DNA from: Actinopolymorpha alba DSM 45243
Lineage (GTDB): Bacteria; Actinomycetota; Actinomycetes; Propionibacteriales; Actinopolymorphaceae
Direction: 5' to 3'
NCBI RefSeq assembly: GCF_000373925.1
Contig: NZ_KB892801.1
Span: forward strand, 62,001-126,000
Length of the DNA stretch: 64,000 nucleotides
The translations under genes were made by a program, and so were the position numbers. Below the pieces are notes generated by a model. The model saw nothing but the letters and a program-made list of their open reading frames with translations, ran no database searches and was not told the DNA's origin. Every line of letters starts with the position of its first letter. The stretch's first letter is position 1. Positions 3,399-50,773 of the stretch are shown piece by piece.

Positions 3399-3440
3399 GT
3401 GGTCGGCGCGGCCTATTCGCGGGAGAAGGTAGCGGGAGGC

Positions 3441-3487
3441 GACTTGGCGGAGGCGTCTCGGCGTCTTTGCCGAAATTCCTCCGCCAG
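3441..3487. repeat. Interspersed hairpin repeat, family A copy 1
   Basis: Outer arms TGGCGGAGG (3445-3453) and CCTCCGCCA (3478-3486) enclose an inner TCGG (3458-3461)/CCGA (3470-3473) stem. The same two-stem design with the same arm sequences recurs at 20084-20131 and 35251-35300. It lies between the NlpC/P60 and acetyltransferase genes. Confidence 0.8.
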
Positions 3488-7270: not shown

Positions 7271-8497
7271 ATGAGCGACCGTGCTAACCCGGGCGCGACT
7301 CCGGGGCCCGACCTCTCCGGCGCCCGCGACGATGCGGAGTCGATGGTCGACTGGGACCTCGCCCTTGCGACAGCCAGGCGACTCCTCCGCCCCGGCCCCG
7401 ACGTCACGGTGGACGAGGCCCGCCAGGTCGTTGCCGACCTGAGGGAGTTCGCCACCAAGGCTGAGGGCCACGTGCGCAGCTATACCGGCCTGCACACGAC
7501 CGGCGCCCGGGCGCCGGTGGTCGTCGTCGACCGGAACGGCTGGGTCCAGGCCAACGTCGACGCGTTCCGGCAGGTCCTCGAGCCCCTGGTGGACAAGGTC
7601 CGCGAACGCCGCGGCGGGGCTGATCTCTCCCGAATGGGGACGTTCGGGTCCCGGGTCACCGGTGTCGAGGCCGGCGCTCTCCTGGCGTTTCTGTCCAGCA
7701 AGGTCCTCGGGCAGTTCGACCCGTTCTGGTCCGACGGCGCGGTCGGCGTACCCGCTCCTCGGGTCAGTCCTGACGGCGGGGTGGACGGCGCGGGTGCGGC
7801 TGGTACGCCGGAAGGCCGGGCCGCCGAGCTGGTTCCGAGCGCGCCGCCAGCCGGCCGGCTGCTTCTCGTCGCTCCCAACGTGGCCCACGTCGAGCGGGAG
7901 CTCGGCGTCGACCCGCATGACTTCCGGCTCTGGGTCTGCCTGCATGAGGAGACCCACCGGGTGCAGTTCACGGCGGTGCCGTGGCTCCGCGATCACCTGC
8001 GTGGCCAGATCCGCTCCTTCCTCGAAGAGACCGACATCGACCCGACGGCGATGTTCTCCCACCTCCGCCAGGGCTTCGAGCAGCTCGGTCGGACTGCCCG
8101 CGGTGGCCAGCAGGAGGTGTCGTTCATCGACCTGGTGCAGACGCCGGCGCAGCGGGAGATCCTCGACCAGGTGACGGCGGTGATGTCCCTGCTCGAGGGG
8201 CACGCCGACGTGGTGATGGACGGCGTCGGACCAGAGGTCATCCCCTCGGTCGCCACGATCCGGTCGAGCTTCCAGCAGCGTAGGAGCGGGGGGAGCTGGC
8301 TCGATCAGTTCCTGAAGCGGATGCTCGGTCTTGACGCCAAGCTCCGCCAGTACCGCGATGGCGCGGCGTTCGTCCGCACCACGGTCGCGGCGGTCGGGCA
8401 GGAGGGCTTCAACGCCGTGTGGGCGTCGCCCGCACACCTGCCGACCAAGGCCGAGATACACGACCCCGACGCGTGGGTACGCCGGGTGCACGGATAG
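7271..8497 (+). CDS. DUF2342 zinc-dependent metalloprotease-like protein
   Basis: A 408-residue actinobacteria-specific protein of the family often labelled coenzyme F420 biosynthesis-associated. It has a GAGGAC ribosome binding site before its ATG. The zinc motif HExxH is intact at His225-Glu226 and His229 ([11 protein letters not shown]), followed by a helical region with a likely downstream ligand. No signal peptide or membrane segment is visible, so it is probably cytosolic. The substrate is unknown. It is regularly found immediately upstream of tilS, as here, and the two probably form one transcript. A 14-aa-scale Ala/Gly-rich insert near residues 160-195 looks like a loop. Confidence 0.87.
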
Positions 8498-8511
8498 CCG
8501 AGCTACTGCCG

Positions 8512-9597
8512 ATGGGACCGCACCCCGCGGTGGCGGCGGTCCGGGCGGCCGTCCGCCGTTCACTCGCCGATCTCCAACCCGGCGCACGGATCCTCGTGGC
8601 CTGCTCGGGTGGCGCCGACTCCCTCGCCCTGGCGGCCGCGACGGCGTTCGAGGCCCGCAGGGCCGGGTGGATCGCCGGCGCCATCACGGTCGACCACGGC
8701 CTGCAACCCGGCTCAGCCGGCCGGGCAGCTCAGGTGGCTGAACTCCTGAGATCCCTCGGCCTTCATCCGGTCGAGGTCGCGACCGTCACGGTGAACGCCG
8801 GAGGTGGGCCTGAGGCGGCTGCACGGCGGGCCAGGTACGCCGCGCTCGACGCCGCCGCCGACCGACTCGACGCGCGCGTCGTCCTGCTCGGCCACACCCG
8901 CGACGACCAGGCGGAGACGGTGTTGCTCGGCCTGGCCCGCGGCTCGGGTGCGCGTTCGCTCGCCGGCATGCCGGCACGGGCGCCCGCGGCCTCACCCGAC
9001 GCCGGCCGCGCCGGGCAGCCGGTGCCTGACCGCTATCGCCGGCCGCTGCTCGGACTCGACCGGATCGTCACCCGTGACGCGTGCGCGGCCGCCGGGCTCG
9101 AGGTCTGGGAAGACCCGCACAACGCTGATCCGGCGTACGCCAGGGTCCGGGTTCGCCGGCAGGTGCTCCCGGTGATGGAGCAGGAGCTGGGGCCCGGGAT
9201 CGCCGCGGCCCTGGCCCGCACTGCGGAGCTGCTGCGCGACGACGCGGACGCGCTGGACGCGTGGGCGGATCAGGCGTACGCCGACTGCACCGCGGCCGCC
9301 GACACGCTCGCCGGCACGCACGCCGGCCCGCGCGCCGACCCGCTCCAGGTCGATCGGCTGATCCCGCTGCCCGCGGCGGTCCGCCGCCGGGTGTTCCGCC
9401 GCGCGGCGCTCGGGGCCGGATGCCCCGGCACCGATCTCTTCGCCCGCCACCTCCTGGCGCTCGACGCCCTGGTGACGGACTGGCGCGGTCAGGTCGGCGT
9501 CGACCTGCCTGGTGGTATCCGGGCCTGCCGTCGCGGCGGACTGATCTCCTTCGCCCGACCACCCGCGGCCGAGACGGGGACGCCCCAGCGTTCTTGA
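8512..9597 (+). CDS. tilS: tRNA(Ile)-lysidine synthase
   Basis: About 361 residues from the ATG at 8512; the frame is open back to 8419, overlapping the upstream gene, so the start is uncertain. The PP-loop is clear: [10 protein letters not shown] with Ser-Gly-Gly-x-Asp-Ser at residues 32-37. [15 protein letters not shown] and [16 protein letters not shown] are also typical TilS stretches. The enzyme ligates lysine to C34 of tRNA-Ile(CAU), switching codon reading from AUG to AUA, and is essential in most bacteria. It follows the DUF2342 gene by 14 bp. In many actinomycetes hpt and ftsH follow directly; here a DJ-1 gene on the other strand intervenes. Confidence 0.94.
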
Positions 9598-19860: not shown

Positions 19861-19928
19861 CATGATCAACTTGCGGAAATCGCCCACGATTCGCGCGAAG
19901 TCTGGGCGACTTCTGCAAGTTGATCATG
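19861..19928. repeat. Long inverted repeat, family B copy 1
   Basis: The 28-nt arms 19861-19888 and 19901-19928 start CATGATCAACTTGC and are complementary apart from a few mismatches. The tip reads GCCCACGATTCGCGCGAAG then TCTGGGC, containing the small palindrome TTCGCGCGAA. It lies in the 422-bp gap between the convergent 313-residue protein and M20 genes. The rest of that gap holds two further repeats and no gene. Confidence 0.85.
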
Positions 19929-19992
19929 AAAGACGATCTTTTACCGCGGCGGGCCTGTTTGTCTCGCGGATCGGGCGGCTTGGGGTTGACTC

Positions 19993-20039
19993 AAGATCAT
20001 TTCGGGGAAGTTGCCCACGTTCCGCATGAAGCGTGGGCC
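19993..20039. repeat. Family B copy 2, right outer arm lost
   Basis: The left arm AAGATCATTTCGGGGAAG and the tip GCCCACG...CGTGGGC match the intact copy at 35138-35198, but the sequence after the tip does not pair with the left arm. It looks like a decayed element. Confidence 0.75.
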
Positions 20040-20083
20040 AAGAGAGTGCTCGCTAGGCGAGATCGTCCACCGAGGTTGCGGTT

Positions 20084-20131
20084 ACTTGGCGGAGGTGTGT
20101 CGGCATAGAAGCCGAGATACCTCCGCCAAGT
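20084..20131. repeat. Interspersed hairpin repeat, family A copy 2
   Basis: Perfect 13-bp arms ACTTGGCGGAGGT (20084-20096) and ACCTCCGCCAAGT (20119-20131) enclose an inner TCGG/CCGA stem. Homology to the 35251-35300 copy extends into the flanks: GAGGTTGCGGT on the left, CCCTTCACxxxATGCCGCG on the right. It lies about 50 bp after a family B element, the same pairing seen at 35.1-35.3 kb. Confidence 0.85.
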
Positions 20132-20170
20132 GGCCTTCCGTTCCCTTCACACAATGCCGCGCGGGCGCGG

Positions 20171-27299: not shown

Positions 27300-28508
27300 G
27301 TGCGGCACCATCGGATCTACGACTGGCTGCGTCGCCGACCCTATGTCGTCGACGCTGGCATCGTCGTGATCCTTTCGGGCCTGTTGCTCATCGGCAGCGG
27401 GTTCTTCTCGGGCGAGATACCTGGTCTCCTCTCCGCCTTCCTGCTGCTGCCTCTGGTGTGGCGGCGGAGGTACCCGGTCGCGGTCTTCACGGTGGTGTCG
27501 TTCGGCTGCCTGGCACAGCTGATCCTGCTCGACGTTCCGATCAACGGCGATATTGCCTTCCCGTTCGCGCTGTACGCCGTAAGCGCTTACGCGAGGAGGA
27601 TCTGGGTACGGCTGGCGGCCCTCGGCGTCGGGGCGCTGGGGGCGGTCCTCGGTCCGCTCGACTGGGTCCAGCCTGAACAGGCCGGAAACTGGTCGTCGAT
27701 CCTGCTCGTGCATGCCGCACTGGTCGCGCTCAGCTGGACGCTCGGGGACCTGATGCGGACCCGCCGGGCGTACGTGGGGGAGTTGGAGGAGCGGGCCCGG
27801 CGCCTTGAGTTCGAACGCGACCAGCAGGCGCTCCTCGCCCGGGCGGCCGAGCGGGCCCGGATCGCGCGGGAGTTGCATGATGTCGTCGCCCACTCCCTGT
27901 CCGTCGTCGTGGCGCAGGCCGACGGTGGGTTGTACGCGGGTGAGAAGGACGCCGGCGCGGCCCGGGAGGCGCTCAAAACCATCGGGGCGACCAGCCGGCA
28001 GGCGCTGAGCGAGATGCGGCGGCTGCTCGGCGTACTCCGGTCAGGCAACGAGGCAGATGACGCGGAGTTCACGCCGCAACCCTGCCTTGCGCAGCTGCCC
28101 GATCTGGTGGCGCAGGTCCGCTCCAGCGGGATGGCGGTCGACCTGGCTGTCGACGGTGAGCCTCGCGCGCTGGCCGGAGGTACGGAGTTGACGGCGTACC
28201 GCATCGTCCAGGAAGCCTTGACGAACACGCTCAAGCACGGCGGTCCCACTGCCCGCGCCTCGGTGCGGCTGTCGTACGCCGACGACGCGCTGCGGGTGCG
28301 GGTCTGCGATGACGGGCGGGGTGCCGCGGCCAGCTCCGACGGGCAGGGGCAGGGGTTGGCTGGCATGCGGGAACGCATCGCCGTCTACGGTGGACAGCTG
28401 CGTGCCGGTCCGCGCCGGGGCGGAGGTTTTGAGGTGCTGGCCGAGCTTCCGTTGACGGGAGCGGAACGCGGCCGGGTGGCTGGCCGTCTCGTCGGCGATG
28501 GAGTGTGA
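27300..28508 (+). CDS. Sensor histidine kinase, NarX/DesK-like (HisKA_3)
   Basis: A 402-residue membrane kinase starting at GTG 27300. Residues 18-150 hold about five hydrophobic helices with short loops and no large sensor domain. A coiled linker leads to the HisKA_3 dimerisation helix with the phospho-acceptor His193 in RIARELHDVVAHSLSVV. The ATPase domain shows the N box (IVQEALTNTLKHG) and G box (VCDDGRG, GLAGMRERI). Such intramembrane-sensing kinases often respond to envelope stress or antibiotics and control nearby ABC exporters. The response regulator gene follows directly, and an exporter pair lies 150 bp beyond it. Confidence 0.93.
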   Translation: MRHHRIYDWLRRRPYVVDAGIVVILSGLLLIGSGFFSGEIPGLLSAFLLLPLVWRRRYPVAVFTVVSFGCLAQLILLDVPINGDIAFPFALYAVSAYARRIWVRLAALGVGALGAVLGPLDWVQPEQAGNWSSILLVHAALVALSWTLGDLMRTRRAYVGELEERARRLEFERDQQALLARAAERARIARELHDVVAHSLSVVVAQADGGLYAGEKDAGAAREALKTIGATSRQALSEMRRLLGVLRSGNEADDAEFTPQPCLAQLPDLVAQVRSSGMAVDLAVDGEPRALAGGTELTAYRIVQEALTNTLKHGGPTARASVRLSYADDALRVRVCDDGRGAAASSDGQGQGLAGMRERIAVYGGQLRAGPRRGGGFEVLAELPLTGAERGRVAGRLVGDGV

Positions 28509-29335: not shown

Positions 29336-30088
29336 ATGCATGCCGCAGCTCCGCCCGTGAACGTACAGTCGGCGGTGAGTGCCGTGAACCTCGTCAAGGT
29401 GTACGGCCAGGGCGCCACGTCCGTACGCGCCCTCGACAACGTGACCGTATCGCTCGAGGCCGGCCAGTTCACCGCGATCATGGGTCCGTCGGGCTCGGGA
29501 AAGTCGACGCTCATGCACTGTCTCGCGGGCCTCGACAGCGCGACGTCGGGCGACGTCCTGCTCGGAGGCACCAACCTCACCGAACTCTCTGACAAGCAGC
29601 TCACGGTGCTGCGGCGGGAGCGGGTCGGCTTCGTCTTCCAGTCGTTCAATCTGATGCCGACCCTCACCGCCAGGCAGAACATCCTGCTTCCGCTCGACCT
29701 CGCCGGCACCCGGCCGGACCGCCAGTGGGTCGACAGCCTTGTCGAGGTGCTCGGACTCGCGGACCGGCTGGCCCACCGCCCGGCCGAGCTGTCCGGCGGC
29801 CAGCAGCAACGGGTCGCGGTCGCGCGGGCGCTGGTGACCCGTCCTGACGTGGTGTTCGCGGACGAGCCGACCGGGAACCTCGACTCGCGGACCGGTGCGG
29901 AGGTGCTCGACTTCCTGCGGCGGTCGGTCCGCGAGTTCGGCCAGACGGTGGTGATGGTCACCCACGACCCGGTGGCCGCGTCGTACGCCGACCGCGTGGT
30001 GCTGCTCGCCGACGGCCGGCTGGCCGGCGAGATCCAGCAGCCGACTCCTGACACGGTCCTGTCCGCCATGCGCGAGCTGGGGGCCTGA
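29336..30088 (+). CDS. ABC transporter ATP-binding protein, MacB/LolD type
   Basis: A 250-residue ATPase; GAAAGG precedes ATG 29336. Walker A GPSGSGKSTLM, Q-loop in FVFQSFNLMPTLTARQN, signature LSGGQQQRVAVARAL, Walker B VVFADEPTGNLDS and the switch His in MVTHDP are all intact. The long Q-loop region and DEPTGNLD are typical of the MacB/LolD/BceA group that drives FtsX-type permeases. It ends 3 bp before its permease gene, so they form a transporter unit. The preceding two-component system is the probable regulator. Confidence 0.95.
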   Translation: MHAAAPPVNVQSAVSAVNLVKVYGQGATSVRALDNVTVSLEAGQFTAIMGPSGSGKSTLMHCLAGLDSATSGDVLLGGTNLTELSDKQLTVLRRERVGFVFQSFNLMPTLTARQNILLPLDLAGTRPDRQWVDSLVEVLGLADRLAHRPAELSGGQQQRVAVARALVTRPDVVFADEPTGNLDSRTGAEVLDFLRRSVREFGQTVVMVTHDPVAASYADRVVLLADGRLAGEIQQPTPDTVLSAMRELGA

Positions 30089-30091
30089 ACC

Positions 30092-32584
30092 ATGCGCCGG
30101 ATGATGCTCGCGTCGATCCGGGGCCACGCCGCGCGGTACGTCGCGGGCGGGCTCGCGGTCGTGCTCGGTGTGGCGTTCGTGACGACCGCCCTCCTCGTCC
30201 TGAACTCCACCAAGGCGGCCATGGCGGAGGCGGTCGGCGCGCAGTACGCCCGGGCCGACCTCGTGGTCGCCAGCAACCAGAACGACCTCACGCCGGACGC
30301 CGTACGCCGGATCCAGGGGATGGAGGGAGTCGCCGCCGCCTCCGGTGTCGCCGTGACGGGTGTCGAGGTCCACTACCCCGGCTCGCCCGGATCCGTCTGG
30401 GTCCAGGTCTCAGGCATCCCCCTTGACCCGGACCTGCGGTGGCAGCGGGTCAAGGACGGACGGCTGCCCGAGAAGCCTGACGAGGTGGCGGTGGCCGCCA
30501 GCACGGCCAAGGACAAGAACCTTCGGCTGGGTACCCGCCTCACCCTCACCACCGGCCAGTCGCGCGTCCACGACGTCCGCGTCGTCGGGATCGTCCGCGG
30601 TGGCACGCTGGCCCAGGACATCACCCTGGTGGCGACTGACCAGGCGACCACCGCGTGGGGCGATGGCGCCACCTACCTCGAGGTCCTTGTCCGGGCGGCA
30701 GACGGTGCCGATCTCGCCGCGCTCCGGACCCGGCTGAGCGCCGCGGTCGGTGCGGACATCACCGTCCAGACCGCCAACGAACGCGTGACCGAGCTGGTGG
30801 CCGGCCTGACCGGCGGGGTCGACGTCCTGGGTGCGTTCCTCCTCGGGTTCGCCGGTATCGCGTTGTTCGTGGCGACCCTCGTCGTCGCCAACACGTTCAC
30901 GATCCTGCTGGCCCAGCGGACCCGTGAACTCGCTCTCCTGCGGTGTGTCGGTGCACGACGCGGGCAGGTGTTCGGGTCTGTGCTCCTGGAGTCGGTCGTT
31001 CTCGGTGTCGCCGCGTCCGCGCTCGGCGTGGCCGCGGGCGCCGGACTCGCCGCGCTGGCGGTCCGGCTGCTCGAAGGGCAGGCCAACGGACTGATGCCGT
31101 CCTCGCTGATGCCCAGCACCCCCACGCTCGTCGTCCCGTTCGTTGCCGGTCTGACGGCCACGGTGGCCGCGGCGCTCGCGCCGGCCAGGCGGGCCACCCG
31201 GGTGTCGCCGCTGGCCGCGCTCCGCCCGGAGATGGCGGTGACCGTACGCTCCCGAGCCGGGGTGGTCCGGGTGGTCCTTGCCCTGGTACTCGTCCTCGGC
31301 GGTGGCGCGATCCTGGTCGCGGGCACCCGTACGAGCGCGATCATGGTTGGGCTCGCCGCCGGTATCGGTGGGGGCCTGGTGTCGTTCCTCGGCGTCCTGC
31401 TCGGTGCGCCGGTGCTGGTGCCGGCCGCTGTCCGGCTCATCGGCCTGCTGTCGGCCCGGGTCGGTGGCGTGCCCGGCCGGCTCGCGGTGTCCAACGCCGT
31501 ACGCAATCCGCGGCGTACGGCTGCCACCGCCGCCGCGTTGCTCGTCGGCGTCACCCTGATCTCGCTGATGACCGTCGGAGCGGCGTCTGTCCAACGCACG
31601 CTGCACGAGTCGCTCGACCGGAGCTATCCGCTCGACCTCACCGTTTCCGCCGAAGGTGGGGAACGCCTGGCGGACAGGACGCTCGCCGCACTTCGCGGTG
31701 TCGACGGCCTCGCCGGGACGGTCCCGCTCCGGGCCGGGCAGGTGGCCCTCGTGGACGACCCGTCCATGCGGGTCCAGGTTCACGGAGTCGATCCGGCGGC
31801 GGCAGCCAAACTGCTCCGGAATCCTGGACCGCTCGGCGGGCTTCGCGACGGGCTCGCGATCGTCGGCCCGGTCACCGCGGCGCAGTTCGGGCTCGAGGAG
31901 GGCGGCAGCTGGCGCCTGCGTACGTCCTCGGGCGGCGAACTCACCGTCCGGGTACGCATGGTCCGCGACGAGGACACCCCGTCGGTGATCGTGAGCGCCG
32001 GCGACCTGGCCCGCCTGGCGCCGAAGGCACAGATCGCGGTGCTCTGGGCCCGGATCGGTGAGCCCGCGGACACCAAGGCGGTACTCGAGCGGGTCCAGCA
32101 GGTGGTCGGCGACCTGGACAACGTCTCGGTGGGCGGGGCCGCACCGATGCGGGCGATGTACGACCAGATCCTGGACGTGCTGCTCCTGATCGCGACCGGG
32201 CTGCTCGCGGTCGCCGTCGTCATCGCGCTGGTCGGCGTCGGCAACACGCTGAGCCTGTCAGTGATCGAGCGAACGCGGGAGCAGGCGTTGCTCCGCGCAC
32301 TCGGGCTGACCCGGGGGCAGCTGCGGGGGATGCTGGCGTTCGAGGCGCTACTCATCGCGGCCGCCGCGGTGGTCCTCGGCCTGCTGCTCGGCATCGGGTA
32401 CGGCTGGTCGGGCACAACCGTCCTACTGCGGACCGCGGCCGAGGGTCAGGTGGCGCTCGACATCCCCGTGAGCCGGCTCCTTCTCGTGGCCGGCGTCGCA
32501 CTGGTGGCCGGGTTGGCCGCGTCGGTGCTGCCGGCCCGCCGGGCGGTCCGCGTACCACCCGCCGCGGCCCTCGGCGACGAATGA
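30092..32584 (+). CDS. FtsX-like ABC transporter permease
   Basis: An 830-residue membrane protein starting 3 bp after its ATPase gene. An N-terminal helix (about 16-38) precedes a large extracytoplasmic MacB-like domain (to about 240). Then comes an FtsX domain with helices near 250, 300 and 350, a central helix group with a second extracytoplasmic domain (about 510-680), and a final FtsX domain with helices near 700, 750 and 795. The TRELALLRCVGARRGQVF and TREQALLRALGLTRGQLRGM segments are the two coupling motifs. Related systems export antimicrobial peptides, lipids or transmit mechanical signals to the wall. The cargo is unknown. Confidence 0.93.
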   Translation: MRRMMLASIRGHAARYVAGGLAVVLGVAFVTTALLVLNSTKAAMAEAVGAQYARADLVVASNQNDLTPDAVRRIQGMEGVAAASGVAVTGVEVHYPGSPGSVWVQVSGIPLDPDLRWQRVKDGRLPEKPDEVAVAASTAKDKNLRLGTRLTLTTGQSRVHDVRVVGIVRGGTLAQDITLVATDQATTAWGDGATYLEVLVRAADGADLAALRTRLSAAVGADITVQTANERVTELVAGLTGGVDVLGAFLLGFAGIALFVATLVVANTFTILLAQRTRELALLRCVGARRGQVFGSVLLESVVLGVAASALGVAAGAGLAALAVRLLEGQANGLMPSSLMPSTPTLVVPFVAGLTATVAAALAPARRATRVSPLAALRPEMAVTVRSRAGVVRVVLALVLVLGGGAILVAGTRTSAIMVGLAAGIGGGLVSFLGVLLGAPVLVPAAVRLIGLLSARVGGVPGRLAVSNAVRNPRRTAATAAALLVGVTLISLMTVGAASVQRTLHESLDRSYPLDLTVSAEGGERLADRTLAALRGVDGLAGTVPLRAGQVALVDDPSMRVQVHGVDPAAAAKLLRNPGPLGGLRDGLAIVGPVTAAQFGLEEGGSWRLRTSSGGELTVRVRMVRDEDTPSVIVSAGDLARLAPKAQIAVLWARIGEPADTKAVLERVQQVVGDLDNVSVGGAAPMRAMYDQILDVLLLIATGLLAVAVVIALVGVGNTLSLSVIERTREQALLRALGLTRGQLRGMLAFEALLIAAAAVVLGLLLGIGYGWSGTTVLLRTAAEGQVALDIPVSRLLLVAGVALVAGLAASVLPARRAVRVPPAAALGDE

Positions 32585-32588
32585 CCTC

Positions 32589-33209
32589 TTAACTGCCGAG
32601 ACCGAACAGAACCGCCAGGACGAACCACAACGCGACAAACGCCAACTCGAGGTAACCGAGCACCAGACCGGCGACCGCGAGGCCGACACCATCGCTGTTC
32701 GTACGCCGGATACGGGAGAGCGCCAGGTGCCCCGTCACGATCGCGGGCACCGCGCTCATCCCCGACGTACACAGGCCGAGCACCGCGCAGGCGATCGAGA
32801 CCTTGGCGAGGGGTTCGGTGACCCGGACCGGCGCGGGTACGTAGTTGGCCCAGGGGTTGGCGAGCGGGGCGGGCGGTGGCGGGTTGTCCGGGCGGGGGAC
32901 CAGGGCGTGTACGGGCCTGCCCGGAAGCGCGGGCGGCTGGCCGGGTGGCAGGATCTGTGCCGGCGAGGTGGGCTGGCCGGGTCCGATCTGCTGGCCCGGC
33001 GAGGGGAGCGGGAACGGCGTCGGCCCGACGGGCAGGTCGACGATCAGTGCCTGGAGCTCGCCGTACGTGCGGGCTCTCATGACCGCATCGACCCGCTCCC
33101 GATGCTCCTCCCAGTCGAGCCGGCCCTCGGCGAGGGCGGCCTTCAGCACATCAGCCGCCCGCTCACGGTCCGCGTCCGACGCCCGCATGGAGTACCAGTC
33201 GGCGCTCAT
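32589..33209 (-). CDS. DUF1707/DUF4190 membrane protein, first paralogue
   Basis: A 206-residue protein whose ATG follows GGGGGTGAC. Residues 1-55 are a DUF1707 domain (MRASDADRERAADVLKAALA, GRLDWEEHRERVDAVMRART), common in actinobacteria and possibly DNA- or protein-binding. A long Pro-rich linker (60-130) leads to a DUF4190 region with two helices (about 143-165 and 180-203), including ATGHLALSRI-like sequence (VTGHLALSRIRRT). It ends 4 bp from the convergent permease gene. The next gene is a shorter paralogue with the same order of parts. Function is unknown. Confidence 0.82.
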   Translation of the reverse strand: MSADWYSMRASDADRERAADVLKAALAEGRLDWEEHRERVDAVMRARTYGELQALIVDLPVGPTPFPLPSPGQQIGPGQPTSPAQILPPGQPPALPGRPVHALVPRPDNPPPPAPLANPWANYVPAPVRVTEPLAKVSIACAVLGLCTSGMSAVPAIVTGHLALSRIRRTNSDGVGLAVAGLVLGYLELAFVALWFVLAVLFGLGS

Positions 33210-33434
33210 GTCACCCCCAGCCCGGTAGGGAGCCGGCCCGCATCGGGACGAGGCGGTCCGGAGAACGTCCTCTCCTGCCATTGTGCAGGCCGATCCTGGG
33301 GTTGGCCGAGGTCTGCGACGGACAGCTCGCGCTCTAGGCGTACCCGAAGGCACGAAATCGGCCCCCGGGAATGCGGCGGATATGCCCAAAGCCGAGCGAT
33401 CCCGATATCCGGTACATATGCCGTCGAACGGACC

Positions 33435-33944
33435 TCAGGCCATGATGATGGCGAGGATCCACAAGACGCCCATCGCGACCACGACCCAGCCGATGGTGAC
33501 GCCCGCGATCGCGAGTCCGCGCCCGTCGTCGCCGGTTTCCTTGATCTTGGACAGCGCCAGGTGGCCGGTGACGACCGCGGCGATACCGCTGATGCCGCAG
33601 GTGAGCGGGGTGAGCGCGCCGAGAATCAACGACGCCTTGGCGAGGGGTTCGGTCGGCCGCGCGGGCGTCAGCGGGTATCCCTGCCACGGCTGCGGAGCCC
33701 GGCCGACGGGTGCGGGATACATCGGTGCCGACGGCCCGGGGGACGGCATCGGAGCGGGCCCTGAGGGCAGGTCGGCGATGATCGCCTGCAGCTCGCCGTA
33801 GGTCTGGGAACGCATGAGAGTGTCGAGACGGCGTTCGTGTTCGGCCCAGGTGAGCCGGCCTTCGGCGAGGGCCGCCTTGAGGACGTCAGCGCCGCGCTGG
33901 CGGTCGGCGTCTGAAGCCCGCATCGAGTGCCAGTTGGCGTTCAT
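33435..33944 (-). CDS. DUF1707/DUF4190 membrane protein, second paralogue
   Basis: A 169-residue protein with GGAGGGATGGG before its ATG. It repeats the architecture of the neighbouring gene: DUF1707 at residues 1-52 (SMRASDADRQRGADVLKAAL), a shorter Pro-rich linker, and a two-helix DUF4190 module (TGHLALSKIKETGDDGRGLA). The shared blocks show that the two arose by tandem duplication, with the linker changing most. The upstream gap holds a separate 28-bp direct repeat. DUF4190 proteins are small membrane proteins of unknown role. Confidence 0.82.
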   Translation of the reverse strand: MNANWHSMRASDADRQRGADVLKAALAEGRLTWAEHERRLDTLMRSQTYGELQAIIADLPSGPAPMPSPGPSAPMYPAPVGRAPQPWQGYPLTPARPTEPLAKASLILGALTPLTCGISGIAAVVTGHLALSKIKETGDDGRGLAIAGVTIGWVVVAMGVLWILAIIMA

Positions 33945-34308: not shown

Positions 34309-35091
34309 ATGCTCCTCGCGATCGACGTCGGCAACACCCACACCGTTCTGGGGCTCTTCGACCATGCTGAGCTGGTCGAGCACTGGCGGGTGGCGACCGA
34401 CGACCGCCGTACGGCAGACGAACTCGCCGTTCTCGTCGCCGGGCTCCTCGACGGCCACCTCGGTCCGGGCGGTGTGACGGGTGTGTCCATCTGCTCCAGT
34501 GTCCCGGCGGTGCTGCACGAGCTCCGGGAGATGCTCCGCCGCTATTACGGCGATGTTGTGGGCGTGGTGGTGGAGCCCGGCGTCCGCACCGGCGTACCCG
34601 TCCTCATGGACAATCCGCGCGAGGTCGGAGCGGACCGGATCGTCAACGCGCTCGCCGCGTTCGACCTCTACGCCCGGGCGTCGATCGTGGTCGACTTCGG
34701 TACGGCGACGACGTTCGACGTGGTGAGTGCGCGCGGGGAGTACATCGGAGGGGCCATCGCCCCCGGGATCGAGATCTCGCTGGAAGCGCTCGGTCAGCGG
34801 GGAGCCCAACTCCGCAGGGTCGAACTCCTTCGCCCGCGTTCGGTGATCGCCAAGAACACCGTGGAGGCGCTCCAGTCCGGCGCGGTCTACGGGTTCGCGG
34901 GGCAGGTCGACGGCATTGTCGGGCGGATGATCGGTGAACTCGGTGCCGCCCCTGACGACGTGACGGTGGTGGCGACGGGCGGCCTCGCCCCGCTGGTCAT
35001 CGAGGAGTGCCGCACGGTCACCGAGCACGAACCCTGGCTCACCCTGCGAGGGCTCCGCCTGGTGTTCGAGCGCAACCAACCCGCGACCTGA
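34309..35091 (+). CDS. coaX: Type III pantothenate kinase
   Basis: A 260-residue enzyme. LLAIDVGNTHTVLGLF is the CoaX phosphate-1 motif with catalytic Asp, and GADRIVNALAAF and VVDFGTATTFDVV are the other ASKHA nucleotide-binding motifs. AIAPGIEISLEAL completes the family set. It phosphorylates pantothenate, the first committed step of coenzyme A synthesis; the type III class is insensitive to CoA feedback. In many actinomycetes panC, panD and nad genes sit just upstream, but here their place is taken by DUF1707 genes and an ABC system. A long repeat-filled gap follows. Confidence 0.96.
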   Translation: MLLAIDVGNTHTVLGLFDHAELVEHWRVATDDRRTADELAVLVAGLLDGHLGPGGVTGVSICSSVPAVLHELREMLRRYYGDVVGVVVEPGVRTGVPVLMDNPREVGADRIVNALAAFDLYARASIVVDFGTATTFDVVSARGEYIGGAIAPGIEISLEALGQRGAQLRRVELLRPRSVIAKNTVEALQSGAVYGFAGQVDGIVGRMIGELGAAPDDVTVVATGGLAPLVIEECRTVTEHEPWLTLRGLRLVFERNQPAT

Positions 35092-35137
35092 CGCGGGGCG
35101 ATGATGTCTCAACATCCAGGCGGCCTGCGGTCCATCG

Positions 35138-35198
35138 AGATCATTTTGGGGAAGCCCACGTCTCGCGCGGAGCGTGGGCCACTTCCCCGAAATGATCT
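35138..35198. repeat. Long inverted repeat, family B copy 3 (intact)
   Basis: The 17-nt arms AGATCATTTTGGGGAAG (35138-35154) and its complement at 35182-35198 differ by one base; inner arms CCCACG (35155-35160) and CGTGGG (35173-35178) close a TCTCGCGCGGAG loop. It begins a 493-bp gap between convergent coaX and the STAS gene that is filled by four repeat elements. The outer arm matches copy 2 but not copies 1 or 5. Confidence 0.87.
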
Positions 35199-35250
35199 TG
35201 AGCGGGTTCGAGAAGCACCCACTATGTGAGATCGCTCGCGAGGTTGCGGT

Positions 35251-35300
35251 GACTTGGCGGAGGAGTTTCGGGAAAGAAGCCGAGACACCTCCGCCAAGTC
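35251..35300. repeat. Interspersed hairpin repeat, family A copy 3
   Basis: Perfect 13-bp arms GACTTGGCGGAGG (35251-35263) and CCTCCGCCAAGTC (35288-35300) contain inner TCGG (35268-35271)/CCGA (35280-35283). Flanks match copy 2 (GAGGTTGCGGT before; CCCTTCAC and ATGCCGCG after). It follows a family B element, as at 20.0 kb. Confidence 0.87.
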
Positions 35301-35421
35301 GGCTCCGGCTCCCTTCACGATGCCGCGGTCTGTCGGTGCGAGGGCCCTATGAGTAAGCCGCCTTAGAGGTCGCGCGGGTCAATATGCGGGGCTGCCTGGG
35401 TGTACGCGATGTGAAAGCTGG

Positions 35422-35493
35422 GACCTCACGCGCCAAGTCGCCACCATGCAAGGTGAATTCGACTTGCTTCGTAGGGAGACGGCGCGTGGGGTC
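35422..35493. repeat. Inverted repeat with GAATTC loop, family E copy 1
   Basis: Outer arms GACCTCACGCGCC (35422-35434) and GGCGCGTGGGGTC (35481-35493) differ at one pair. An inner GCAAG/CTTGC stem closes the loop GTGAATTCGA. The inner part recurs inverted at 50738-50757. Confidence 0.8.
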
Positions 35494-35536
35494 GGGGCTG
35501 TCTCGAGAATGGCGTACACCTGAGACCCGAAGCGAC

Positions 35537-35576
35537 GATCAACGTGGAGATGCGGCCCACGTCTCGCGCGAGGCGT
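35537..35576. repeat. Partial family B element, copy 4
   Basis: GATCAACGTGGAGATG followed by the tip GGCCCACGTCTCGCGCGAG resembles the left half of copy 1 with the loop of copy 3. The right arm is missing where the STAS gene begins. Confidence 0.6.
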
Positions 35577-35584
35577 ACTCCGGG

Positions 35585-35905
35585 TCAGCTGTACAGCGGC
35601 AGGTGATGCCAGTGCGCTCGGTCCAGCGCCCTGAGCACCGGCTGGCTGATCATGGAGAACGCGACCTCATACCCCTCGGCCTGCCCCCGGCGTTCCATCT
35701 CGAGCAGGAACCGCAGACCGCATTCGTCGAACGCCGTGACCTCGCGGGTGTCCACGACGACGCGGTCCAGATTGCCCAGGTCCTCCAGGAGTGACACCTC
35801 CTGGAGCGCGGCGGCCAGCTTGGACTCCGTTGCCGGCCCGATCATTCCGCGCAGGAACACCACGATCTCGCGACTTCCCCGGTCGACTACCTCGACGTCA
35901 TCCAT
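35585..35905 (-). CDS. STAS-domain protein, anti-sigma factor antagonist-like, with non-canonical active site
   Basis: A 106-residue protein; GAGGAGGCGAGAGGT precedes ATG 35905. It is a single STAS domain of the SpoIIAA/RsbV type: a beta strand pair, LDRVVVDTREVTAFDECGLR and a closing helix. In SpoIIAA the phosphorylated serine lies in the motif Asp-Ser-Ser-Gly. Here the sequence is Asp60-Glu61-Cys62-Gly63, so the usual phospho-Ser is Cys and the preceding Ser is Glu. The protein therefore cannot be switched by serine phosphorylation in the normal way. No anti-sigma kinase or sigma factor gene is adjacent. Confidence 0.85.
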   Translation of the reverse strand: MDDVEVVDRGSREIVVFLRGMIGPATESKLAAALQEVSLLEDLGNLDRVVVDTREVTAFDECGLRFLLEMERRGQAEGYEVAFSMISQPVLRALDRAHWHHLPLYS

Positions 35906-36096: not shown

Positions 36097-36807
36097 TCAG
36101 GCCGGCTCCGGGATCGATCCCGGAAGGTCGAGGACGCCGCGGAGCCAGCGTTCGGAGGTGGCGACGTGGACAACGCTCGCCGCCCGGGCGGCCTCCGGGT
36201 CACGGTCGGCCAGAGCGGCATAAATGCCTTCGTGTTGGGCGATAGTGAGGCTCGCCGCGCCCTCCTCGCGCAGGCCCCGCCAGATCCGCGCCCGGAGGGT
36301 GCGACTCGACAGGGCTGATAGCAGCGACGCCAGCGTCGGGTTGCCGCAGGCGGCGATCACCCGGTCATGGAACGCCGTGTCGTAGGACACGAGTTCCTCG
36401 GTGTCGGAGGCGGCGCGCATCTGGTCGAGCAAGGTGCGCAGGTCGGCGAGGAGGTCGCCGTCCGCGTGCCGGGCCGCCAGCGCGGTGGCCTCCGCTTCGA
36501 GGATCCGGCGTACATGCATGACATCGGCGAGATCGCGGTCCTGGATCAGATGGACGGCGAAGCCGATCCCCTCCAGAAGTAGCGCCGGCTCCAGACTCGT
36601 GACGTAGGTGCCGTCTCCACGGCGGACGTCGAGTACGCGGGCGACTTCGAGGGCTTTCACCGCTTCACGTACCGAACCACGCGACATTCCGAGCATGGCG
36701 CAGAGTTGCTTTTCGGGCGGAAGCCGGGCGCCCGGGTGCAGTTCACCGGTCACGATGAGTTCGCGGATCCGGGAGATCGCCTCGTCGGTGCGCGCCATGT
36801 CGGCCAT
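36097..36807 (-). CDS. GntR-family (FadR subfamily) transcriptional regulator
   Basis: About 236 residues from ATG 36807 (MADMARTDEAISRIRELI), with AGGA just upstream; ATG 36798 is an alternative. The winged helix at 8-75 contains GELHPGARLPPEKQLCAMLG and MSRGSVREAVKALE. The FCD ligand domain (about 90-215) has the metal-binding His/Asp pattern, for example FHDRVIAACGNPTLASLLS. FCD regulators sense organic acids, sugar acids or acyl compounds. The gene follows the glycerophosphodiester phosphodiesterase gene on the same strand, separated by 16-bp repeats, so it may control that enzyme. Confidence 0.9.
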   Translation of the reverse strand: MADMARTDEAISRIRELIVTGELHPGARLPPEKQLCAMLGMSRGSVREAVKALEVARVLDVRRGDGTYVTSLEPALLLEGIGFAVHLIQDRDLADVMHVRRILEAEATALAARHADGDLLADLRTLLDQMRAASDTEELVSYDTAFHDRVIAACGNPTLASLLSALSSRTLRARIWRGLREEGAASLTIAQHEGIYAALADRDPEAARAASVVHVATSERWLRGVLDLPGSIPEPA

Positions 36808-36828
36808 TGTCCTGACGTCCTTCTCCGG

Positions 36829-36876
36829 CGACTCAACCCCGGGCCGACTCAACCCCGGGCCGACTCAACCCCGGGC
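36829..36876. repeat. Three perfect tandem 16-bp units covering the GDPD stop codon
   Basis: CGACTCAACCCCGGGC is repeated at 36829-36844, 36845-36860 and 36861-36876. On the minus strand the GDPD stop (36849-36851) lies in the middle unit, and one more unit separates it from the regulator gene. Since 16 is not a multiple of three, unit loss or gain would change the C-terminus. Confidence 0.9.
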
Positions 36877-37809: not shown

Positions 37810-39321
37810 ATGACCGAGACGCCCCCGCCCCGCGCTGCGCCGGAGGAGGATCTCCCGGAGCAGATGCGGATTCGGCGCGATAAGAGGGCGCAGCTGATCG
37901 GTCGCGGCATTGATCCGTATCCCGTCTCAGTCACACGGACCCATACTCTCGCCGAGCTTCGCCGTCTCTACGGTGATCTTGAACCCGACCAGGCGACTGG
38001 TCAGATGGCGACGGTTGTGGGGCGGGTCATCTTTTCCAGGATCACCGGCAAGCTGTGTTTTGCACGCCTCCGCGATGGCGACGGCACCGAGGTGCAGGCC
38101 ATGATCTCGGTGGACCGGGTCGGTCAGGAGTCCCTCGCCGACTGGAAATCCATGGTCGACATCGGTGACCACGTCGGTGTTGAGGGTGAGGTCGTCACCA
38201 GCCGGCGCGGCGAACTCTCCGTTGCGGCCACTCGTTGGTTCATCGTCTCCAAAGCGGTACGCCCGCTTCCGGTCGAGCACAAGCACCTGTCCGAGGAATC
38301 CCGGGTACGCCAGCGTTACCTCGATCTCATCCAGCGCCCCGGAGCCCGGGAGTTGCTGGTGGCCCGCTCGGCCGTGGTGTCGACGATTCGGCAGTCCCTT
38401 TCCTCCCGCGACTACGTCGAAGTCGAAACCCCCATCCTGCAGGCCGTCCATGGTGGCGCCGCGGCCCGACCATTCGTGACGCAGTTCAACGCCTTCGACC
38501 GGGAGTACTACCTCCGCATCGCGATCGAGCTGTACCTCAAGAGGCTGGTCGTCGGCGGTGTCCACCGGGTCTTCGAGATCGGTCGTAATTTCCGGAATGA
38601 GGGCGTCGACTCGACGCACTCACCCGAGTTCACGATGCTCGAGGCTTATGAGGCCTACGGCGATTACCACACGATGGCCGGGCTGGTTCGCTCCCTCGTC
38701 CTGGCGGCGGCGACGGCGGTCGGCTCGACAGTGGTCCCCGATGGTCGCGGCGGACAGATCGACCTCACCACCGAATGGCGTTGGCTGCCAATACACGAGG
38801 CGGTCTCCTCTGCCGTTGGCGAAGAAGTGACGCCCGACACTGGCGAGGAGGAGCTGCGGCGATACGCCGACCGCTTCAATGTCGCGCTTCAGCCCGACTG
38901 GAGCACCGGCGAGATCGTCCTCGAGCTCTTTGAGAAGCTCGTCGAGCACACCCTCATCGAGCCGACATTTGTCTGTGACTATCCCGCCGAGGTTCGCCCG
39001 TTGGCTCGGCCCCACCGCAAGGATCCCCGACTTGCCGAGGCCTTCGATCTGGTGGCGGCCGGTGTGGAGTTGGCGGTGGCATATTCGGAGCTCGTCGACC
39101 CGGTCGAACAACGCGACCGGCTCGTCGAGCAGTCCATCCGAGCGGCCGGCGGCGATCCAGAGGCGATGCAGCTCGACGAGGATTTCCTGCGTGCTCTCGA
39201 ATACGGCATGCCGCCGACCGGCGGGATGGGTATGGGAATCGACCGGCTCGTCATGCTGCTGACCGGCGTTCGTTCCATTCGTGACACCATCCTCTTCCCA
39301 CTGGTGAAGCCGGAGGGCTGA
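37810..39321 (+). CDS. lysS: Lysyl-tRNA synthetase, class II
   Basis: A 503-residue enzyme. The OB anticodon-binding domain (about 55-160: GQMATVVGRVIFSRITGKLC) precedes the class II catalytic domain. Motif 1 lies near VEVETPILQAVHGGAAARPF, motif 2 is FRNEGVDSTHSPEFTMLE (about 262-279), and motif 3 is GMGMGIDRLVMLLTG (about 473-487). The insert length matches free-standing LysS rather than the lysyl-phosphatidylglycerol fusion LysX, since no transmembrane region is present. lysS upstream of lsr2 and clpC is the conserved order. Confidence 0.96.
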   Translation: MTETPPPRAAPEEDLPEQMRIRRDKRAQLIGRGIDPYPVSVTRTHTLAELRRLYGDLEPDQATGQMATVVGRVIFSRITGKLCFARLRDGDGTEVQAMISVDRVGQESLADWKSMVDIGDHVGVEGEVVTSRRGELSVAATRWFIVSKAVRPLPVEHKHLSEESRVRQRYLDLIQRPGARELLVARSAVVSTIRQSLSSRDYVEVETPILQAVHGGAAARPFVTQFNAFDREYYLRIAIELYLKRLVVGGVHRVFEIGRNFRNEGVDSTHSPEFTMLEAYEAYGDYHTMAGLVRSLVLAAATAVGSTVVPDGRGGQIDLTTEWRWLPIHEAVSSAVGEEVTPDTGEEELRRYADRFNVALQPDWSTGEIVLELFEKLVEHTLIEPTFVCDYPAEVRPLARPHRKDPRLAEAFDLVAAGVELAVAYSELVDPVEQRDRLVEQSIRAAGGDPEAMQLDEDFLRALEYGMPPTGGMGMGIDRLVMLLTGVRSIRDTILFPLVKPEG

Positions 39322-50685: not shown

Positions 50686-50721
50686 CCCGAGCACGGAGCC
50701 ACGACTGGCGGGACCTCGCGT

Positions 50722-50773
50722 GGCGACTTCCTGCGAAGCAAGCTGAATTCCCCTTGCCTGGCGGGAAGATGCC
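50722..50773. repeat. Inverted repeat with GAATTC loop, family E copy 2
   Basis: Outer arms 50722-50734 and 50761-50773 pair with three mismatches. The inner GCAAG/CTTGC stem and GAATTC loop match, in inverted orientation, the element at 35422-35493. Confidence 0.75.

Follow-up and report, generated by a model that had tools for sequence, protein, structure and literature searches.

A small group of actinobacterial STAS-only proteins without the switch serine

The window analysed here, a 64,000-nucleotide stretch of the Actinopolymorpha alba genome, contains a short gene for a protein that consists of a STAS domain and reads Asp-Glu-Cys-Gly (DECG) at the place where the phospho-switching antagonist SpoIIAA reads Asp-Ser-Ser-Gly (DSSG). 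This raises the question of whether the missing serine is an oddity of one sequence or a property of a group, and of what a STAS protein without it could do. An earlier note on this DNA had offered three readings: a permanent phosphomimic, a redox switch working through the cysteine, or a STAS domain recruited to another partner. The features referred to below are the following.

34309..35091 (+): coaX, which encodes type III pantothenate kinase; a conserved flanking gene on one side, with no sign of a functional link
35585..35905 (-): the STAS-only gene, 106 amino acids plus stop
35717..35728 (-): the degenerate site D60-E61-C62-G63 (codons GAC GAA TGC GGT), placed by alignment to SpoIIAA
35867..35884 (-): the beta1-beta2 hairpin DRGSRE, codons 8-13
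37810..39321 (+): lysS, which encodes lysyl-tRNA synthetase; the conserved gene on the second flank, where it and the STAS gene are on opposite strands

The gene, its relatives and its genomic place

The STAS gene begins with an ATG preceded by a GAGGAGG-like ribosome site. Its product (MDDVEVVDRGSREIVVFLRG...TAFDECGLRFL...AHWHHLPLYS) matches the Pfam families STAS_2 (PF13466; E 6e-8, 33.2 bits against a curated cut-off of 29.2) and STAS (PF01740; E 1.3e-6, 28.5 bits against a curated cut-off of 22.6), and scores 20 bits with the anti-sigma factor antagonist model TIGR00377, below its cut-off of 53.45. An AF2 model (built from the window protein together with two Actinopolymorpha relatives; mean pLDDT 88.4) has a SpoIIAA-like fold, its best structural match being SpoIIAA in the SpoIIAB complex (1til_B; Z 14.3, rmsd 1.9, 102 residues). 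The top Foldseek rows are RsfB with UsfX and RsbV with RsbW, that is, proteins bound to anti-sigma partners. Two designed repeat proteins at the top of a PDB profile search (4rv1 and 4hxt) were discarded as spurious matches, each being a short stretch that aligns weakly many times over.

Orthologues, defined by synteny and tree, are present in 8/8 of the genomes compared from the window's family, which are Actinopolymorpha relatives and include A. pittospori and A. rutila. A class-level sample of 394 genomes searched at E 1e-6 gave matches in 27 genomes, namely the window's own, 22 with strong matches (89-113 bits) and four with weak ones. The five weak matches in these four genomes (L082-L086; 30.9-35 bits against 89-113) fall outside the clade and were left out of the orthologue set, which therefore has 30 members: the eight family genomes and 22 further class genomes, nearly all of one other family. 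That other main family carries the gene in 21 of the 22 genomes searched, and in 20 of 20 when only those with 90% completeness or more and 5% contamination or less are counted. The order-level sample (391 genomes) returned the eight family genomes and three weak matches; two of the latter have Ser/Thr at the site (L018, DSSG; L019, DSTG) and are not orthologues, and the third (L020) is without a STAS alignment in the frame read. The window's own genome was the sole match in a phylum-level sample (396 genomes, E 1e-8), so the group is patchy. A search for carriage by mobile elements gave no match, either in 50,697 records of phages (E 1e-5) or in 72,556 of plasmids (E 1e-3). The 30 orthologues group together in a single clade that is separate from the BldG rows, with support of 98/93, in a tree where several joins with L085 and other long rows are unsure. 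Twelve of the 30 rows come from a single genus; hence conservation was also computed with one row per genus (9 rows).

The genomic place of the gene was compared, using the genes of the window, in 17 regions (7/7 relatives from the family and 10/22 from the class; the STAS position in the L092 region comes from a profile match, not from BLAST). The order coaX-STAS-lysS is found in 16 of them, with the STAS gene on the strand opposite to both, and lsr2 follows lysS in all 17. The seventeenth region, from a family relative (L027, genome G020), has the STAS gene adjoining a GDPD gene and lysS, and BLAST found no coaX beside it (about 8160-9350); two DUF1707-type genes lie next to the STAS gene there, in reversed orientation. 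A GDPD gene stands between STAS and lysS in the window and in all seven family relatives. The conserved neighbours coaX, lysS, lsr2 and clpC are core genes. Both coaX and lysS are housekeeping genes and lie on the opposite strand; no function was therefore read into this synteny, which may be inertia.

A GntR/FCD regulator (36097-36849) between STAS and GDPD belongs to the window genome alone and is absent from that place in 7/7 family relatives, and a tandem DUF1707-type pair next to coaX (32589-33944, the first also DUF4190) recurs in the seven family relatives. The gap between coaX and STAS (35101-35590) holds long palindromes with arms at 35135-35154/35182-35201 and 35251-35271/35280-35300. 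Relatives of these lie elsewhere in the window (3425-3486, 19864-20161 and 50712-50764) and at three loci of the same genome (L048, L053, L056); the compared loci of other genomes gave no match at E 0.01. They are apparently a dispersed palindromic repeat particular to this genome.

The reading frame is not a chance one, because it has orthologues in 8/8 family genomes, a dN/dS of 0.10-0.60 (closest 40 of 190 pairs among 20 orthologues) and a maintained genomic place. Against each of its two nearest relatives the window gene has a dN/dS of about 0.31. Judged from these sequence comparisons, the STAS group is under purifying selection.

The phosphorylation site

We take the second serine of DSSG to be the phosphorylated one in SpoIIAA. 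A profile of the 30 orthologues aligned with SpoIIAA (1th8) places MDSSG of the latter on the same five columns as the site, and the alignment is gap-free there, so that column 62 is the phospho-serine position. Cys62 thus replaces the phospho-serine and Glu61 the serine before it, as the earlier note had proposed. A review also names Ser58 of SpoIIAA (PMC8256260).

The four columns of the tetrad differ widely among the 30 orthologues. Column 60 contains Gly (11), Thr (7), Ser (5), Glu (4) or Asp (3); column 61 contains Asp (14) or Glu (5), and is thus acidic in 19/30, the other 11 rows being spread over eight residues; column 62 is mostly Ala (21), with Pro (3), Val (2) and one each of Cys, Gly, Thr and Ser; and column 63 is Gly (20) or Ala (10). 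Ser and Thr are therefore missing from column 62 in 28/30 orthologues. The earlier note had considered that orthologues might revert to serine or that another serine might occupy the phosphorylation site; neither is seen, as Ser and Thr occur once each and the alignment puts no other serine in the place of column 62. Conservation of the Glu-Cys pair, which the note had put forward for checking, is likewise absent: the pair occurs in 1/30 orthologues, the window protein itself. A BldG-like STAS paralogue (L001/L118) served as a control and holds D-S-T-G in 8/8 of the same family genomes, so the serine loss is specific to this STAS group.

Cys62 is the sole cysteine of the window protein, one fewer than a redox antagonist of the RsfA type needs. 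No cysteine position is common to the group: counting the columns present in the window protein, column 65 is Cys in 5/30 orthologues, and 24/30 are without any cysteine. We read Cys62 as a small, roughly isosteric substitute for Ser or Ala that is particular to this species.

In the AF2 model the site is the start of a helix (61-77), where a Gly, Thr, Ser or Asp is followed by an often acidic and then by a small residue. This pattern and its position look like an ordinary helix N-terminus, which the acidic column 61 fits. Most rows of one genus share the tetrad [TS]DAA, and this stability inside a genus implies that some constraint is left on the tetrad. Two orthologues with Ser (L075, TDSA) or Thr (L060, SGTG) at the phospho column are nested in clades mostly without either residue; these are apparently cases of regain or drift, and in principle both proteins could be phosphorylated.

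Conservation and possible functions

What is conserved in this group is the beta1-beta2 hairpin and the C-terminal helix rather than the phospho-loop. With gaps not counted as a letter, mean column entropy over the 30 rows is 1.29 bits for the whole protein; it is 1.81 for the tetrad and 1.96 for loop 21-25, against 0.57 in hairpin 8-13 and 0.70 in residues 92-99; with one row per genus the corresponding values are 1.19, 1.58, 1.55, 0.48 and 0.66. The tetrad is variable and not extreme, as 14 of the 103 four-residue windows, itself included, are at least as variable. D8, G10, E13 and W99 are invariant in 30/30 orthologues. By the usual topology of STAS domains, the beta1-beta2 turn is at the domain end away from the phospho-loop, and we take the tetrad and loop 21-25 to be the kinase-facing elements of the fold. 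The conservation of the hairpin and the C-terminus may serve folding alone.

The reading that we favour, and hold to be probable, is that the window protein is a non-switching STAS adaptor, always in an unphosphorylated-like state, for a putative partner. On this view, the phosphorylatable serine would have disappeared in a single event from an old protein with the SpoIIAA/RsbV/RsfB fold and STAS as its only domain, earlier than the divergence within the group, and the protein would since have been kept as a small binding protein that always resembles the unphosphorylated form. Its activity would be set by its own amount or by the partner, rather than by a kinase or phosphatase acting on it. 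The surface for the partner has probably moved from the phospho-loop to the hairpin D8-R9-G10-x-R12-E13 together with the C-terminal R92-A93-x-E/D95...W99. Mutants of known proteins bear on the state of such a domain. In RsfB of M. smegmatis, the S63A form stays active and binds RsbW1 as the unphosphorylated wild type does, whereas S63E does not bind (PMC7693655); sypA-S56A of Vibrio fischeri complements and S56D does not (PMC4517449). Because RsfB S63A and SypA S56A work, a protein whose residue here is Ala or a small Cys should, by analogy, be permanently competent and not off. The earlier idea of a STAS domain recruited to another partner is compatible with all of this evidence and is the best of the three original readings. 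Fold, orthology, loss of the serine, purifying selection and the distribution of conservation are observed; the binding of a partner, the surface used for it and the constant competence of the protein are inferred. A bolder version, rather doubtful in our judgement, is that the binding site has shifted to the far end of the domain, at the invariant D8/G10/E13 hairpin, in a dedicated non-switching adaptor whose partner lies outside sigma-factor control, and that a few actinobacterial families have long kept this adaptor in the same chromosomal position.

The main rival to the adaptor, which we consider unlikely, is a constitutive anti-sigma antagonist that binds an RsbW-like protein by the classical face and cannot be phosphorylated off. 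It shares the fold of RsfB, RsbV and SpoIIAA, and the genome could supply the rest of such a system, with two SigB/F/G sigma factors over cut-off, three SpoIIE-type phosphatase domains and a HATPase_c_2 frame of 147 codons that stands alone. A weak HATPase_c_2 protein (19.6 bits, the cut-off being 27.4) also precedes one of the two sigma factors. The activity of RsfB S63A (PMC7693655) agrees with this rival as well. However, the presumed kinase-facing tetrad and loop 21-25 are among the variable parts of the protein, and no such kinase is linked to the gene within the window, the orthologue neighbourhoods having been compared with window genes only. No HATPase_c_2 match in the window exceeds the cut-off, and the sole one below it is in a histidine kinase (27300-28508) beside a response regulator, which agrees with the statement in the earlier note that no anti-sigma kinase is adjacent. 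A role as a subunit, in which the protein would stabilise a transport or enzyme complex as MlaB does on its ABC ATPase and would never have taken part in partner switching, appears improbable. An MlaB chain is among the structural matches (7cha_K, Z 12.7), the model NF033618 (mlaB_1) weakly matches 7/30 members (best E 0.0022), and an ABC ATPase/permease pair (29336-32584) is near the STAS gene in the family. Nevertheless, coaX and two DUF1707-type genes separate that pair from the STAS gene, and the ABC-ATPase matches in 7/10 class regions have no more than 28-35% identity and lie at a distance of kilobases. No MlaFED/Mce-type gene is among those STAS neighbours that were identified.

The two remaining readings of the earlier note fare worse. 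A redox-responsive antagonist with Cys62 as its switch instead of phosphorylation is very improbable: the cysteine is exactly at the switch position and RsfA, with its two-cysteine disulfide (PMC7693655), offers a precedent, but the residue is confined to the window protein, the cysteines elsewhere in the group are the few given above, and an internal RsfA-like disulfide is impossible because Cys62 is the only cysteine. A redox switch as the function of the group is thus not supported; an effect of the cysteine limited to this species may exist. That Glu61 mimics a phosphate and holds the protein permanently off is scarcely credible. The frequent Asp or Glu in column 61 would favour it, but the phosphorylated position corresponds to column 62 instead, which is acidic in 0/30 orthologues, and purifying selection on a permanently-off protein would be unexpected, unless the off state has a job of its own.

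Comparison with known STAS proteins

The loss of the switch serine is old and common to the group, not an oddity of a single sequence, and it cautions against annotating the window protein as a phosphorylation- or redox-controlled anti-sigma antagonist. The group is small, has a fixed genomic address and is open to experiment in culturable Actinopolymorpha. The broader interest is modest, as degenerate domains of this kind are common: four other STAS matches of this genome (L002, L003, L005, L014) are, by eye, also without Ser/Thr at the site. These are longer frames, including glutaminase-like and SulP-like proteins, unlike the STAS-only window protein. The BldG-like paralogue of the same genome belongs to the same fold family but retains D-S-T-G. 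No description of the group was recognised in the literature searched on degenerate or redox STAS proteins or on an antagonist with lsr2 and lysS.

The window protein resembles SpoIIAA, RsbV and RsfB in being a single STAS domain of near size that shares their fold over its whole length (Z 13.5-14.3: 1til, 6m36, 8ih8). It differs from them in that its group lacks the phospho-serine, has variable tetrads for D-S-S-G and is about 12-21% identical to the solved structures; Ser/Thr at the site and an adjacent kinase gene, the latter common and not obligatory for a phospho-switching antagonist of the SpoIIAA/RsbV type, are both missing. RsfA (Rv1365c) of mycobacteria is likewise STAS-type, but has two cysteines whose disulfide inactivates it (PMC7693655), whereas the window protein has one and most orthologues none. 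Also built of a STAS domain alone are the non-canonical STAS-only proteins SypA, RbaV and BtrV, several of which, according to the accessible part of PMC8256260, are active unphosphorylated on unknown targets, with the regulatory serine present. The window group is without that serine, and is a real, conserved, ordinary but new addition to these non-canonical STAS-only proteins.
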